Source of the DNA: an uncultured Clostridia bacterium
Lineage (GTDB): Bacteria; Bacillota; Clostridia; Oscillospirales; Ruminococcaceae
Reading direction: 5' to 3'
Assembly (NCBI GenBank): GCA_947624555.1
Contig: CANQKW010000010.1
Location: 1 to 51,173, forward strand
DNA length: 51,173 nt
Position 1 is the stretch's first letter. Every line of letters begins with the position of its first letter. The translations under genes and the position numbers were made by a program. This document shows, one piece after another, positions 721 through 31,142 of the stretch. A model generated the notes under the pieces. That model ran no database searches. It was not told the DNA's origin and worked only from the letters and a program-made list of their open reading frames with translations.

Positions 721-847
721 ACCCATTTTCAAGCGAACTTCCAGCAACGCACAAGCCGCTCGTAATCTGCAGATATTGCATACCTACAGTGGTTGTTCGT
801 TACGGGAAATCTCCGCTAATGGCAAGGGAATTTTTTTCGGAAACCCC

Positions 848-875
848 TTGACTTTTTCGGAGAATATGTTAGAGT
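848..875 (+). promoter_or_regulatory. Element promoter P2 (TTGACT-N16-TAGAGT, extended -10)
   Basis: TTGACT 848-853 and TAGAGT 870-875 with TG at 867-868; the same AAACCCCTTGAC lead-in as P1. The spacer is 16 bp rather than 17. It drives the small gene at 931. Confidence 0.78.
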
Positions 876-930
876 TCGTATAGAGAACAAAAATTCTCTA
901 ATACGGGGCAGACCGAGAAAGGAGGATAAT

Positions 931-1062
931 ATGAACGAGATGACGAACGAGCAATACGCCGATGCCAAGGAAACGCTTATACGCTACATTGCCGAGCTTG
1001 TTAAGCACAGCAATGACCTCGGCGAAGCGGTGCAAAAAATAGAAGCCCTACTTAAAAAGTAG
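931..1062 (+). CDS. 43-residue small protein (MTNEQY family copy A)
   Basis: ATG 931 follows AAAGGAGG at ideal spacing and sits downstream of P2. The product is a short amphipathic, probably all-helical protein. It shares the core MTNEQYxDAKETLI and the pattern of its second helix with the oppositely oriented gene at 1153-1293, so the two are paralogues facing each other. A perfect sigma-A promoter on the minus strand at 1128-1156 would make RNA antisense to this gene. Function unknown; it has no membrane segment, so it does not look like a type I toxin. Confidence 0.75.
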   Translation: MNEMTNEQYADAKETLIRYIAELVKHSNDLGEAVQKIEALLKK

Positions 1063-1127: not shown

Positions 1128-1156
1128 ATTATACCACATCTTAAACGATTTGTCAA
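1128..1156 (-). promoter_or_regulatory. Minus-strand consensus promoter antisense to the 931 gene
   Basis: On the minus strand TTGACA (1151-1156) and TATAAT (1128-1133) are separated by 17 bp. Transcription would run left across 1120-900, where there is no minus-strand gene, so the product would be an antisense RNA to the 43-residue gene. The -35 box overlaps the stop codon of the minus-strand gene 1153-1293. Confidence 0.75.
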
Positions 1157-1293
1157 GTGTTTTTTTGCGGAAGAAGTGTTTTAACTTTTTCAACCGCCTC
1201 GTCAATGCTCGAACTTCCCTTAATCATCTCGATAACGAGAAGAATGAGCGTTTCCTTTGCATCCTTGTACTGTTCGTTAGTCATACCTTCCAT
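1153..1293 (-). CDS. 46-residue small protein (MTNEQY family copy B)
   Basis: The start at 1293 is set by AGGAGG eight bases upstream; longer frames run through the promoter at 1337-1365. The protein (MEGMTNEQYKDAKETLI at the start) is a clear paralogue of copy A at 931-1062, on the opposite strand and convergent with it. It is the only minus-strand gene in the element apart from the antisense promoter. The function is unknown; the duplication and facing arrangement suggest a regulatory pair. Confidence 0.75.
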   Translation of the reverse strand: MEGMTNEQYKDAKETLILLVIEMIKGSSSIDEAVEKVKTLLPQKNT

Positions 1294-1336
1294 AGCAATC
1301 AGCCTCCTATTCGTTATATACTGCAATTCCGCTTTT

Positions 1337-1365
1337 ATTATAGCACGGCGGTAATGCGAAGTCAA
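1337..1365 (-). promoter_or_regulatory. Consensus promoter of the minus-strand small gene
   Basis: Minus strand TTGACT (1360-1365), 17 bp spacer, TATAAT (1337-1342). The -10 is the standard TATAAT, not the TAGAGT of the plus-strand element promoters. Confidence 0.85.
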
Positions 1366-4547: not shown

Positions 4548-4669
4548 CTACCCTGCGGATTATCAACCCGTCAAAACTGTTATCCGGGTGTTAACTGTGT
4601 GCCTGCAAGCACGGTTCAATTCTCTGCACGATTGCAAAGCAAAATTTTTTCGATTTTTGAAAAAACCTA

Positions 4670-4698
4670 TTGACAAATTCCAGTTGGCGTGGTAGAGT
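4670..4698 (+). promoter_or_regulatory. Element promoter P3 (TTGACA-N17-TAGAGT, extended -10)
   Basis: TTGACA 4670-4675, TAGAGT 4693-4698, TG at 4690-4691, with a T/A-rich tract (4641-4665) directly upstream. It heads the genes at 4746-6270. Confidence 0.85.
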
Positions 4699-4745
4699 AC
4701 GTTTACAGAAACAAAATAACCATAGACAAACTGGAGGTAAGTGAT

Positions 4746-7056: not shown

Positions 7057-7134
7057 TTCCTAATGGTTGACCGTTGATAAAGTAAACAAATTTCAAAAAA
7101 AATTAAAAATTTTTGAAATTTTTGAAAAAACCTA

Positions 7135-7163
7135 TTGACACAAGCCGAATGGTGTGTTAGAGT
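7135..7163 (+). promoter_or_regulatory. Element promoter P4 (TTGACA-N17-TAGAGT, extended -10)
   Basis: TTGACA 7135-7140, TAGAGT 7158-7163, TG at 7155-7156; a long A/T tract (7088-7130) lies immediately upstream. It heads the genes from 7306. Confidence 0.85.
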
Positions 7164-7305
7164 ATAGTTACAATAAAACAAAGCCAAATGGAACGAAGCG
7201 AATAGGGTAATTCGGGCGAGCACCTGCAATAGTGGGAGCAAAAAGGACCCGTTTTGGGCGAAAGCTTCGTTAAATGAGGCTGGCAAACACGAAAGGAAGT
7301 GCGCC
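7164..7305 (+). other. Long structured 5' leader of the P4 transcript
   Basis: About 130 transcribed bases precede the first start codon. AACGAAGC (about 7191-7198) can pair with GCTTCGTT (about 7264-7271), enclosing further G/C-rich segments. No open frame with a ribosome site is seen in it. This is a structural observation only; no riboswitch class is recognised. Confidence 0.4.
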
Positions 7306-8820: not shown

Positions 8821-9209
8821 GGGCAACCTTTTATACCTTAGAAGCAAACCCTCCTTAAAATGCAAATTTTAGCGTTTGGTAACGTTGACGTTGCGCTCCG
8901 TAAGCAACTCCAATCCCAGACATAAACCGGCAGTACCCGAAGTGGGAACAACAGCAGCATCTGCGACAATCTCCTCGGCATATCACCACACAATGTCCGA
9001 ATGTTACAGCTAGAAATATCAACCACCTAGCCGGCACAGGTAGCAGTTCCAACAGCCGCAGCTTCTGAAAAGAGTATCGGCACGGTGACAGGGCTAACAG
9101 CAGAAACGTTAGAGTTCCACACGCTCGAACGCTTCCTACCCATTCGCAGGGCACTAATAAACGAAAACCGAAAAAATTAAAAAAATTTTTAAAAAATTTC
9201 GAAAACCCC
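8821..9209. other. 389 bp without a convincing gene
   Basis: Neither strand has a frame with a credible start and ribosome site: the longest minus-strand frame here (8855-9259) runs over promoter P5 and has no start site of quality. The last 40 bases are the A/T tract of P5. The base composition is like that of coding DNA, so this may be the remains of a gene. Confidence 0.5.
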
Positions 9210-9238
9210 TTGACATTTTCCGATTGGTATGTTAGAGT
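9210..9238 (+). promoter_or_regulatory. Element promoter P5 (TTGACA-N17-TAGAGT, extended -10)
   Basis: TTGACA 9210-9215, TAGAGT 9233-9238, TG at 9230-9231. A 41 bp segment (9202-9242) is identical to 277-317 of P1. It heads the long gene run from 9294 onward, for which no later element-type promoter was seen. Confidence 0.87.
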
Positions 9239-9285
9239 ATAGATAACGAAACAAAACAAGCCATACGGCTATAAGGAAGGACGGT

Positions 9286-10199: not shown

Positions 10200-10248
10200 T
10201 TGGCAGATTACCACATTTCCGCATAATTTAATGATTTTAGGAGGAAAT

Positions 10249-10884
10249 ATGACAGAATACACAAAAATTCCAACGATTTTCAAACGCGATACCACTGGCA
10301 GCAAAAAGCTGATAGAGGGTGCGTTTTGCGACGAAACGACCGAGTTTTTGAAAGACAATGTTTGGGTATGCACCGAAAAAATTGACGGCACAAACATAGG
10401 TATTGTCTGGGACGGTCACAAGGTATCATATCAAGGCAGAACTGAACGTGCACAATTGCCCACACATCTCACGGCAAAACTTATAGAGATGTTCGGTGGG
10501 AATGACGCTGAAGAACTGTTTGAGCAAAAGTTTGGCGATATGCCTGTTATTTTGTTCGGCGAGGGTTACGGCGCAAAAATCCAAAGCGGTGAAAAATACC
10601 GTGATGATGTTTCGTTCATACTGTTTGACGTTTATCTTCCCTATAAGCATTTGTGGTTAAAGCGCGATGCTGTTGAAGACATTGCAACAGCATTCGGCGT
10701 TGACGTTGTTCCTATTATCATTGAGGGTACATTGAACGAAGCGGTTGCCTACGTTAAGAGTAAGCCTAAGTCAACCATAGGTTCTGCTGATATGGAGGGT
10801 TTGGTTTGCAAGCCTAAGCAGGAATTGCTTGATCGGCAAGGACATCGTATAATCGTTAAGGTCAAGGCGTGTGATTTTAAATGA
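10249..10884 (+). CDS. RNA ligase of the Rnl2/DRB0094-like nucleotidyltransferase family
   Basis: 211 residues; ATG 10249 follows TAGGAGG. All nucleotidyltransferase motifs are visible: KIDG with the catalytic lysine at 44 (motif I), RTER at 64-67, FGEGYG at about 103-108 (motif III), EGLVCKP at 183-189 (motif IV) and VKVK at 203-206 (motif V). It should seal RNA nicks with ATP through a lysyl-AMP intermediate. Phages use such enzymes to repair tRNAs cut by host anticodon nucleases; that role here is inference. It lacks an extra C-terminal domain, so it is a minimal ligase. Confidence 0.87.
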   Translation: MTEYTKIPTIFKRDTTGSKKLIEGAFCDETTEFLKDNVWVCTEKIDGTNIGIVWDGHKVSYQGRTERAQLPTHLTAKLIEMFGGNDAEELFEQKFGDMPVILFGEGYGAKIQSGEKYRDDVSFILFDVYLPYKHLWLKRDAVEDIATAFGVDVVPIIIEGTLNEAVAYVKSKPKSTIGSADMEGLVCKPKQELLDRQGHRIIVKVKACDFK

Positions 10885-13452: not shown

Positions 13453-13656
13453 ATGATGCTCTGTGTATACTGCCTCTACAGCAAGGATATTAAAAAGGCG
13501 CATTACAGAATTCCACACCTTGAGGTTGATGATACATACGACTTGAATAAGTATTGCGTTAGGAAGTCGGCACCCCTTGTCGAGCCTAAGTGCTTTTCGC
13601 TTGCTGAAATCAACACAATAATGCGCCTGCGAGAAGATGAAAGTGAGGGCAAATAA
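13453..13656 (+). CDS. Hypothetical 67-residue protein
   Basis: ATG 13453, 10 bp after the previous stop, with no strong ribosome site, so translation is probably coupled. Begins [20 protein letters not shown], which includes a C-x2-C. The stop TAA overlaps the next ATG (TAATG), tying it to the sigma-like gene downstream. Family unknown. Confidence 0.6.
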
Positions 13657-14336
13657 TGGATTACAGGACTTGTTTTAAAGAGGGGCTTCCGTACCCGTAC
13701 AATATTGCAGATATGCTTTTGAGTGAGATGCGGGAACAGATGCCTGATCTTGAAGAAATTGAACTTTCGGCAAGCGGCGTTATGAAAATGATGAATGAAC
13801 GCTTGTCCGTGAGGGAGAGGGAAGTAATCGAGCTGAGGTGGAGAGATGGCAAGACTTGCGATGATTGCGGCAAAGTTTTTTCGGTTACACGGGAGCGAAT
13901 ACGGCAAATCGAGGCTAAGGCGTTGAAAAAACTTTCCTTTTATGCTCGGAAACTGGAGTACAGTTCTGTCCCGTATGCTACATACAACAACCTTAAAATG
14001 CGTTATAACCTTTTGAAACAGCAAAAAGAACAGGCTGAAAGACGGCTTGACATACTGCTCGGAATTATTGGTAATGACAACACGCCTACTGAAGAAGATG
14101 AGCTGCCGCTTACGATTGAAAGCATGGATTTGTCTGTTCGGGCTTATAACTGCTTAAAACGGGCTGGCATTAAAACCTTGGATGATTTGCTTGAGATAGA
14201 CACTTTCGATGGTTTTCTTAATATTAGGAATTTGGGAAGAAAATCGACAGATGAAATCGTAAATAAAATCCATTCGTATGGACTGCTAATGAAGTGGGAA
14301 AGCGAGGAAATCAAAGATGAAGAAAACGAAAATTGA
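13656..14336 (+). CDS. Sigma-70 region 4 / RNA polymerase alpha-CTD fusion protein
   Basis: 226 residues. Residues about 46-95 are a sigma region 4 ([30 protein letters not shown]), the helix-turn-helix that reads the -35 box. Residues 110-135 form a helical linker. Residues about 150-212 are an alpha C-terminal domain: [14 protein letters not shown] and [13 protein letters not shown] keep the Arg, Asn, Lys and Gly-x-Lys-Ser positions that contact the UP element minor groove in E. coli alpha. There is no sigma region 2, so it cannot melt DNA alone and probably acts with host polymerase. Start overlaps the previous stop; the end overlaps the next gene by 20 bp. It may act on P1-P5, by inference. 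Confidence 0.88.
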
Positions 14337-15099
14337 ATGGTGCGACAGCACTTGGAACCCCGTTACGGGATGCTTGCACGGGTGCGAATACTGCTATGCG
14401 AGAAGAATTGCAAACAGATTTTCCTATGAAGGGCAAACATTAGACGCACCGCAAGAGTTACAGCGTGTATGGCTGAGAGACGGTAAAAACGACGCGCGCC
14501 ATGCCAGCACTCACGTTTTACGTTATCCTGTCGATTTGATTAGCGGAAGGACTTGTCCCTATCCGTTTGGGTTCGCTCCAACGTTTCACCGCTACCGCCT
14601 TGATGGGATCCAACGTTGGCAAAAGCCGCAAACAATCTTCGTATGCTCTATGGCAGACCTTTTCGGGGAATGGGTCCCCGATGAGTGGATTGAGGAAGTT
14701 TTCGCCGCCTGCGAAAAAGCTCCGCAGCACCGCTATTTGTTTCTCACAAAAAATCCTTTTCGGTATGAGCAGCTACACCAAAAAGGGATTTTACGCAAAT
14801 CGGAAAATATGTGGTACGGATATTCGGCGACAAAGGACAGTTATGATTTATGGTTTGACCGTCAGTACAATTGCTTCGTGAGCATTGAGCCGCTTCTCGG
14901 AGAAGTTGAAATTACCGATACACATTGGGTGATTGTCGGAGCGGAAACGGGAAACCGCAAAGACAAGGTCGTACCTCAAAAAGAATGGATAGAAAGCATT
15001 TGCAGAACAGCAGATGAAATGAACGTCCCCGTCTTTATGAAAAACAGCCTTATTCCTGTTGTGGGCGAGGAAAATATGAGGAGGGAGTTTCCGTGGTGA
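14317..15099 (+). CDS. DUF5131 (phage Gp37/Gp68-like) protein, copy A
   Basis: 260 residues starting at ATG 14317 inside the sigma-like gene. [15 protein letters not shown] precedes CLHGCEYC, a C-x3-C-x2-C motif (Cys 19, 23, 26) that resembles the radical-SAM iron-sulfur site. [29 protein letters not shown] and [10 protein letters not shown] are all family blocks. The function is unknown; family members are frequent in phages of gut bacteria. A second, more distant copy lies at 18994. The GAGGAGGGAGTTTCCGTGG end is shared with copy B, where it supplies the next gene's start. Confidence 0.88.
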
Positions 15100-18814: not shown

Positions 18815-18997
18815 TTGAAGAAAAAGCAGATTGTTCTTGCGATTGTATTCTGCGCTTTGGCGGTTGTTACTTTAACCACCTGTAAACCGCGCGAGGATAG
18901 CGCAGGAACAGCCGTTTTCACAAAAACGATAAATTATACCACCAACATCGTAAATTCGATTACAGGCGATTGTCGAGAGAGTGAGGGCATTATATGA
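18815..18997 (+). CDS. Small exported or membrane-anchored peptide, 60 residues
   Basis: TTG 18815 behind AGGGGGCGA. MKKKQIVLAIVFCALAVVTL is a signal or anchor helix, followed by TTCK, an imperfect lipobox. The short external part is polar. The end overlaps the DUF5131 copy B start. Confidence 0.55.
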   Translation: MKKKQIVLAIVFCALAVVTLTTCKPREDSAGTAVFTKTINYTTNIVNSITGDCRESEGII

Positions 18998-19800
18998 AAA
19001 ATAGCAAGATAGAATGGTGCGACAGCAGCTGGAATCCAATTACAGGGTGCTTACACGATTGCGAATACTGCTATGCGCGGAAAATTGCAAATCGTTTCAA
19101 GGGTTGTATAGAGGATGAAAGCGCACCAATTACCGCATCACTTAACGGAATGCAGACGGGAGCGGTTATTGAGCTGGACGCACCGATGAAAAGGAAGACA
19201 GAGGGCGGGGAAATCATTACAGCACCATATCCGTTCGGATTTCAGCCCACATTGCACCGTTATCGCTTGGACGACCCAAAGAAATGGACGAAGCCTAGGA
19301 CGATATTCGTCTGTAGTATGGCAGACATTTTCGGGGATTGGGTTCCCGATGAATGGATAGAAGCCGTTTTTGCAGCTTGCGAGAAAGCCTCGCAGCACCG
19401 ATATTTATTCCTTACAAAGAACCCGAAACGATTATGCGAGTTGGCAAACAAGAAGAAACTACCGAAAAACGAAAACTTTTGGTTTGGAAGCACCGTTGAT
19501 ACTACAAAATCCCGATTATATCCCGGCAGATTACGCGATAACACATTCATCAGCATTGAGCCGCTTCTCGAACCGCTTAACGTGGGGATTGGGAGCTTCG
19601 GCGGCGCAAGATGGATAATCATAGGCGCGGAAACAGGAAATCGGGAAGGAAAAGTCATTCCCAAAAAAGAATGGATTGATAACATCTGTGAAGCAGCAGA
19701 CATTACCCACGCGGCGGTTTTTATGAAAGATAGCCTCCTCCCTATTGTTGGCGAATCGAATATGAGGAGGGAGTTTCCGTGGGAAAATATTACGACATAA
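18994..19800 (+). CDS. DUF5131 (phage Gp37/Gp68-like) protein, copy B
   Basis: 268 residues from ATG 18994 (ATGA overlap). Same KIEWCDSSWNPITGC start and C-x3-C-x2-C (Cys 19, 23, 26) as copy A at 14317, and the same VCSMADIFGDWVPDEWI, FLTKNP, SIEPLL, GAETGNR blocks, but a different insert after the cysteines. The DNA at the 3' end (GAGGAGGGAGTTTCCGTGG) is shared with copy A and provides the ribosome site for the downstream gene. Confidence 0.88.
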   Translation: MKNSKIEWCDSSWNPITGCLHDCEYCYARKIANRFKGCIEDESAPITASLNGMQTGAVIELDAPMKRKTEGGEIITAPYPFGFQPTLHRYRLDDPKKWTKPRTIFVCSMADIFGDWVPDEWIEAVFAACEKASQHRYLFLTKNPKRLCELANKKKLPKNENFWFGSTVDTTKSRLYPGRLRDNTFISIEPLLEPLNVGIGSFGGARWIIIGAETGNREGKVIPKKEWIDNICEAADITHAAVFMKDSLLPIVGESNMRREFPWENITT

Positions 19801-23065: not shown

Positions 23066-23142
23066 TGGTCTGAGTGACAGGATTTGAACCTGCGGCCTCT
23101 ACCACCCCAAGGTAGCGCGCTACCAATCTGCGCCACACCCAG
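23066..23142 (-). tRNA. tRNA-Pro, anticodon GGG, CCA encoded
   Basis: Minus strand: acceptor CTGGGTG / CACTCAG, D stem GCGC / GCGC, anticodon stem CTACC / GGTAG with loop TTGGGGT (anticodon GGG), T arm GCAGG-TTCAAAT-CCTGT, discriminator A and encoded CCA. All stems pair. The 3' end points toward the phage-like block, making it a probable integration site. Confidence 0.95.
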
Positions 23143-30617: not shown

Positions 30618-31142
30618 ATGAAATTATCTTTGAAAACATCGGAAAGCTTTAACGAAGTTATGAAACTGTATCTGCCGACGGTGTACCGAATAGCGTTCAC
30701 AAGGCTGAAAAACGCTGCCGACGCAGAGGACGCCGCACAGGACGTTTTTTTGTGGTATTTCAAGGCGGACAAGACCTTTGAAAGCGAAGAGCACAGAAAA
30801 GCGTTTTTGATACGCTGCGCAATAAACCGTGCAAATTCTTATGCGTCAAGCGCTCACGCAAGGCATACCGCTAAAGGCGAGCTGCTTGAAAATATGACCG
30901 AAATTTCTTGCGACAACGCCTCAGAAACCGTCCTGAAAACCGAAACACAGCGTGAAGTACTTGACGCCGTGATGAAACTTGCGCCCAAATACAGGACAGT
31001 AATTCATCTGTTCTATTTCGAGGATATGACTATCGCACAGATAGCCGAAGTCACCGACTCCAAAGAAAGCGCCGTGAAATCTCGCCTGATGAGGGCGAGA
31101 GAAAAGCTGAAATCAACGCTTGGCGGCTATGAATTTGACTGA
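30618..31142 (+). CDS. ECF RNA polymerase sigma factor
   Basis: 174 residues from ATG 30618 behind CAGGTGA. Region 2 (AFTRLKNAADAEDAAQDVFL, residues about 27-46) and region 4 (LAPKYRTVIHLFYFEDMTIA with an HTH of IAQIAEVTDSKESAVKSRL) are present; region 3 is absent, as in ECF factors. Followed 13 bp later by a membrane protein that looks like its anti-sigma partner. Controls its own small regulon, not deducible from this window. Confidence 0.93.
   Translation: MKLSLKTSESFNEVMKLYLPTVYRIAFTRLKNAADAEDAAQDVFLWYFKADKTFESEEHRKAFLIRCAINRANSYASSAHARHTAKGELLENMTEISCDNASETVLKTETQREVLDAVMKLAPKYRTVIHLFYFEDMTIAQIAEVTDSKESAVKSRLMRAREKLKSTLGGYEFD

Follow-up and report, generated by a model that had tools for sequence, protein, structure and literature searches.

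A prophage of an uncultured Clostridia bacterium (Ruminococcaceae) encodes a 226-residue protein in which region 4 of a sigma-70 factor and the C-terminal domain of the RNA polymerase alpha subunit (alpha-CTD) are joined in a single chain. The gene (13656..14336, plus strand) lies in a stretch of 51,173 nucleotides, hereafter the window (contig CANQKW010000010.1 of assembly GCA_947624555.1, here called C10), and the prophage is known from its parts on C10 and on a second contig, C50. Thirteen further intact proteins have the same two domains. We tentatively propose, as a reading that we favour without holding it to be probable, that the fusion is a mobile-element transcription regulator that imitates the upstream half of promoter-bound host RNA polymerase and acts with the sigma-A holoenzyme.

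One chain with sigma region 4 and an alpha-CTD

Pfam assigns residues 49-93 (13800..13934, plus strand, as for all parts of the gene) to sigma-70 region 4, including the -35-reading helix (PF04545, E = 2.8e-13; 49.6 bits with a cut-off of 24.1), and residues 144-206 (14085..14273) to the alpha-CTD (PF03118, E = 5e-21). The linker (13935..14084) is largely one long predicted helix (residues 106-139), and the motif Y-P-Y-N precedes region 4 (residues 13-16, 13692..13703). Both folds are present in a predicted model of the protein compared with PDB structures by VIA-align, the best match for the alpha-CTD being the Spx/alpha-CTD complex 1z3e. Pfam finds in the protein no sigma region 2 (no PF04542 match at E ≤ 1) and no match to the alpha N-terminal assembly domain, and the NCBIfam rpoA models align to it by the C-terminal 70-80 positions only (best 25 of 48). 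The original prediction had placed both domains in one protein lacking a melting domain and had named structure prediction as a check of the alpha-CTD fold, and it is borne out in all these respects. An ordinary sigma factor is ruled out by the missing region 2, and an ordinary RpoA by the missing alpha N-terminal domain. The closest counterparts of the two modules are region 4 of the host primary sigma factor and the C-terminal domain of host RpoA: the -35-reading helix is letter-for-letter that of a host sigma-A-type factor (L003), and the alpha-CTD is 47% identical to host RpoA.

Region 4 without region 2 would also suit a split sigma factor, in which a separate gene supplies the region 2 partner, as in the YvrI/YvrHa pair of B. 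subtilis, and the prophage stretch between C50 and C10, which lies outside both contigs and hence outside the sequence at hand, could hold such a partner. Against this, just one of the 18 region 2 matches in the genome (E ≤ 0.01) falls in the window, at 30663-30848 and outside the element, and at the same threshold there is none in the fusion protein or in the parts of the element on C10 and C50, so that we would give a split sigma factor only the slightest chance.

A family carried by unlike elements

In viral contigs and genomes the fusion family comprises 14 intact members, counting the window protein, and one further broken copy; the count omits the latter (G405) and a phage protein (L021) that is a near copy of another member, L136. 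All 14 match both Sigma70_r4 and RNA_pol_A_CTD in one open frame each, at 21-42% identity to the reference row, which rules out chance or an assembly artefact as the origin of the fusion and strengthens what had been claimed from the single sequence. Two of the 14, G180 and G1026a, are near copies of each other. A single-protein search of 247 genomes of the taxonomic family gave L020, a relative from the same genus. L021, an unannotated phage record from human faeces (MT835636), covers 73% of the query, and its protein in turn found L136. A three-protein profile led to L057-L061 in viral contigs and to copies in G594, G015 and G405, and a ten-row profile to G687, to two members in G1026 and to one in G1033. 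The two G1026 members are different and have differing surroundings (L151, 9890-10606; L152, 9237-9812), the first of these loci repeating, by eye, the G180 element. The G405 copy (L143, from 3404 on) is interrupted by a stop codon in its alpha-CTD. The annotated phage and plasmid collections gave no record in which a single place covered 80% of the query, and a search of genome_contigs with N-terminal peptides gave no close relatives.

The fusion is rare. It was found in at least 2 of 247 genomes of the taxonomic family with the single protein (E ≤ 1e-18) and in at least 5 of 396 with a profile (1e-30), in at least 3 of 391 genomes of the class (profile, 1e-32) and in at least 1 of 398 of the phylum (1e-30), the last being its own genome only; these sets overlap, each includes the genome of the window, and up to five candidates per genome were scored in the profile searches. 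At the level of the order 352 of 394 genomes gave a match (1e-20), and among the matches listed nearly all are the alpha-CTD alone, in RpoA. Region 4 alone is far commoner than the fusion in viral contigs: a profile check of every open frame in the 80 kept loci of at least 187 viral relatives detected region 4 in 78 of them and, in five, a single frame with both domains. Two loci in which the match ran past region 4, L105 and L114, have no alpha-CTD in the same frame and are not counted as members.

Beyond the two domains, most members have in common a motif of the form Y-P-x-N, which lies outside the sigma domain as delimited by Pfam, roughly 25-40 residues before region 4, with P in 13 and N in 12 of the 14. 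Linkers of 34-96 residues join in one protein, without region 2 or the alpha N-terminal domain, what the host has in separate proteins. Pfam also reports additional helix-turn-helix (HTH) domains, HTH_3 in four members and HTH_17 in two, and these six can be read as carrying an extra DNA-binding head; the head was checked individually in L061, L058, L136 and G1033, and for L057 and L059 it is taken from the tally and from inspection by eye.

The genes around the fusion vary. It lies some 3 kb before genes for the terminase large subunit and portal in L060, some 6 kb before those for the small and large terminase subunits in L136, directly after genes for an ssDNA-binding protein and an exonuclease in L061, between an integrase gene and a primase/helicase gene in G1026b, and near an integrase gene and a ParA-type gene in G180. 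When the neighbours were compared over 12 loci (E ≤ 1e-6, with L151-L153 set aside), those held in common, other than the fusion, were a phrog_2045-type pair (window and G015), ParA-type and XRE pairs (G180 and G015), a recombinase-type pair (G180 and G405) and two others (L057 and L060; G015 and G405). Because the surroundings differ and few neighbours are in common, it seems that the fusion itself travels between unlike elements. In a tree of 63 alpha-CTD columns, which bears on whether the fusion arose once, the fusion rows need four changes, with several long branches and a bootstrap that is not settled.

Constraint on the DNA-reading surfaces

The original prediction had pointed to DNA-contact residues retained in the alpha-CTD. 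We considered six positions of region 4 and eight of the alpha-CTD that we take, from E. coli, to contact DNA, and compared their column entropy over the 14 intact members with that of the remaining positions. The values were 0.55 vs 1.80 bits for region 4 (n = 6, one-sided p = 0.0016) and 0.58 vs 1.91 bits for the alpha-CTD (n = 8, one-sided p = 0.00013), and the alpha-CTD contacts assumed in this way are retained in the window protein itself. The claim of retention thus extends to the family, in which both DNA-reading surfaces appear, as judged by these alignments, still to be kept; the values do not speak for any activity beyond DNA reading.

These values bear on one further alternative, in which the protein is a decoy that presents two polymerase surfaces in soluble form and so titrates anti-sigma or alpha-binding factors made by the host or by rival phages. 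Sigma region 4 and the alpha-CTD are both targets of such factors, and it is a complex with Spx that gives the best structural match to the alpha-CTD. A decoy is nonetheless very improbable in our view, as the assumed DNA contacts are among the least variable positions and the extra HTH heads in 6 of the 14 members point to work on DNA.

Promoter-like units in the element

A promoter-like unit of about 82 bases (repeat families D1, D4 and D6) occurs five times in the element, four times as a strong copy and once in degenerate form; the five are together called P1-P5 and all lie on the plus strand. From 5' to 3' each strong unit has an A/T tract, TTGACA, a block resembling CCGATTGG, TG and TAGAGT. 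P1 (249..330; family D1) has TTGACA at 285 and CCGATTGG itself in the spacer before TG-TAGAGT; repeat searches place the other strong copies at 4634..4715, 7099..7180 and 9174..9255, with TTGACA at 4670, 7135 and 9210. The degenerate fifth copy (835..892; families D4 and D6) has TTGACT at 848 and TATGTTAGAGTT, and is the one copy of the five without the block CCNNNTGG, which in the others stands between the -35 and -10 elements. That these units form a repeated promoter family had been proposed from the window, and the rest of the genome agrees: when at most two mismatches are allowed, the core pattern has four genome matches, all in the element, and its reversed control has none. The spacer blocks (CCGATTGG, CCAGTTGG and CCGAATGG; 285-320, 4670-4705, 7135-7170 and 9210-9245) are near-palindromes and could be the operator of another regulator.

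A looser pattern of A/T tract, TTGACA and extended -10 has 29 matches in the genome, corresponding to 21 distinct sites, of which four belong to the element and 17 lie outside it (a pair among the 17, on C8 and C30, being near copies of each other). The upstream half of P1-P5 is therefore a design that the host uses too, and what sets the element promoters apart is the weak -10 element together with the spacer block: TAGAGT occurs at none of the 17 host sites, 11 of which have TATAAT. The weak -10 is in keeping with a promoter that depends on help from upstream, and the conserved spacer block suggests another regulator; both features are away from the contacts expected of region 4 and an alpha-CTD.

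It is accordingly possible, if short of probable, that P1-P5 are ordinary strong host-type promoters under a different regulator that binds the spacer block, the fusion acting elsewhere or on its own operon. The conservation of CCNNNTGG in four of the five copies, away from those contacts, the upstream design common to host promoters and a repressor-like HTH_3 gene on C50 all speak for such an arrangement, which can be combined with either an activating or a competing role for the fusion. It leaves unexplained the weak -10 that the element promoters have in common, and the regulator itself is hypothetical.

A possible role at the upstream half of promoters

For the regulator that we favour, acting alongside the host holoenzyme, the steps might be as follows. 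Region 4 of the fusion would read a -35 box of the TTGACA type while its alpha-CTD grips the A/T-rich minor groove beside it. Because region 2 is missing, the protein alone should neither open DNA nor form a working holoenzyme, that is, act as a sigma factor. Instead, acting with the sigma-A holoenzyme of the host, it would sit on -35/UP DNA, or stand in for sigma region 4 on the beta flap, and supply upstream contacts in trans. This would favour promoters that, like P1-P5, combine strong upstream elements with a weak -10. The binding to DNA, the contact with the flap, the direction of the effect and the promoters acted on are all inferred here. A single chain placed in this way on DNA is plausible since in PDB entry 3n97 sigma region 4 and an alpha-CTD, the same two domains, occupy UP/-35 DNA laid out as in P1-P5; there they are separate proteins from two bacteria brought together in a crystal, whereas the fusion is one natural protein.

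Several observations weigh against this proposal. The original prediction suggested that the protein could redirect polymerase to element promoters, a role that is possible but has no support over its rivals: with a -35 helix identical to that of L003 there is no evident preference for element over host -35 boxes, so that selectivity would be left unexplained, the same layout is found at the 17 host sites, and the distinguishing -10 and spacer lie outside the expected contacts. The exact pattern of P1-P5, TTGACANNNNCCNNTTGGNNTGNTAGAGT, has no match in viral_contigs or in genome_contigs, and under one strict pattern (TTGAC with extended -10) none of 11 relative loci, which include the nearly identical L021 and L136, has a series like P1-P5; the strict pattern occurs once each in L057 and L059 and twice in L026. 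The conserved contact positions are conserved in ordinary sigma and alpha subunits too, and would indicate a retained function without saying which, and in the member G1033 three of the six region 4 contacts are gone (S, T and Q at the equivalents of R584, E585 and R588). The residues that we take to form the alpha-sigma interface are kept less well than the DNA contacts: an acid is present at the 261-equivalent and at the 259-equivalent of alpha in 9 of 14 members each, and the R603-equivalent of sigma is kept in 6 of 14.

A pure competitor would, moreover, cover the same DNA positions. Such a protein would occupy -35/UP DNA or the beta flap without initiating, and would shut down strong sigma-A promoters of host and element alike, whether as host shut-off or as feedback on P1-P5. 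The absence of region 2, the host-identical -35 helix and the 17 distinct host sites with a matching upstream layout are all in keeping with it. We consider it somewhat unlikely on grounds of argument, in that an alpha-CTD would be superfluous in a simple repressor, and a prophage or integrative element, living in its host, would bear the cost of silencing it wholesale; the extra HTH heads of six members likewise lean towards a targeted regulator over a general silencer. Still more speculative, and in our estimate unlikely, is an extension of the regulator proposed here to the whole family, as a portable clamp in phages and integrative elements that supplants or overrides the upstream contacts of host polymerase, the element providing upstream recognition while host sigma still opens the DNA, some members having gained DNA-targeting heads.

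Relation to known systems

Phages take over host polymerase through new sigma factors, through anti-sigma and co-activator proteins and through modification of alpha. A natural protein uniting in one chain the modules with which two polymerase subunits read upstream DNA, and conserved in elements of different kinds, would be a further route, and a testable case for how much of promoter choice upstream contacts alone can carry; the small size of the protein suits assays with laboratory polymerases. We found no description of a sigma region 4/alpha-CTD fusion in the openly licensed literature. This argues only weakly that none exists, and databases may well list such proteins under automatic names.

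The closest parallels are the single-HTH sigma factors of jumbo phages and the orthologues of gp33, which, in the portion of PMC7824862 drawn on here, recruit host polymerase via the SBHM (flap) domain of beta. Like the fusion, these minimal factors and T4 gp33 are phage-encoded and have a sigma-type HTH but lack the other parts of a sigma factor (PMC7824862, same portion); no alpha-CTD is described for them in that portion, whereas the fusion family adds one, together with Y-P-x-N, and its flap contact is a prediction. The protein gp005 of Bacillus phage Goe8 (L179, 1599-2231, near the genome end; 210 residues, 'RNA polymerase subunit alpha') also ends in an alpha-CTD (147-203, E = 4.3e-22) but has no other Pfam match and hence, unlike the fusion, no sigma region 4. 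With an alpha-CTD on another N-terminal part, it indicates that phages have acquired the alpha-CTD in at least two different contexts. The gene transfer agent activators GafY/GafZ and GafA are, in the part of PMC11150451 used here, also element-type regulators that work via contacts with host polymerase; the parallel is functional only, and no comparison made here relates them to the fusion.

The prophage

The right end of the prophage lies in the 3' end of a tRNA-Pro gene (23066-23142), where 45 bases forming the attachment (att) core (23066..23110) recur exactly on C50 of the same genome (G000:C50 146-190), adjoining a minus-strand gene for a phage integrase (PF00589, E = 1.5e-26). We take C50 and C10 to be the two ends of one prophage because this core recurs beside the integrase. 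The other genes on C50 encode, besides the HTH_3 repressor-like protein, RecT, an IstB-type ATPase, RusA, SSB and a dUTPase. Comparison of 20 open reading frames of the window part with PHROGs gave phrog_1221, an RNA ligase, two phrog_2045 proteins, a methyltransferase and HNH, NinB-type and pyrophosphatase proteins; there was no terminase, portal or tail match among the 20, and the sole head-type match is a partial one to the head-decoration family phrog_10993.

The two phrog_2045 copies (14317-15099, directly after the fusion gene, and 18994-19800) are diverged, their DNA being 71-81% identical in three stretches (direct repeats D2, D3 and D5), and the G015 element also has a phrog_2045 protein, 48% identical to the first copy. 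The RNA ligase-like protein is encoded at 10246-10884 (phrog_548, E = 2.8e-25). Near the left end of the window, two small related proteins (MTNEQY...AKETLI...) are encoded tail to tail at 931-1062 (plus strand) and 1153-1365 (minus strand), and consensus-like promoters on the minus strand at 1365 (TTGACT/TATAAT) and 1156 (TTGACA/TATAAT) are unlike the plus-strand units with TAGAGT.
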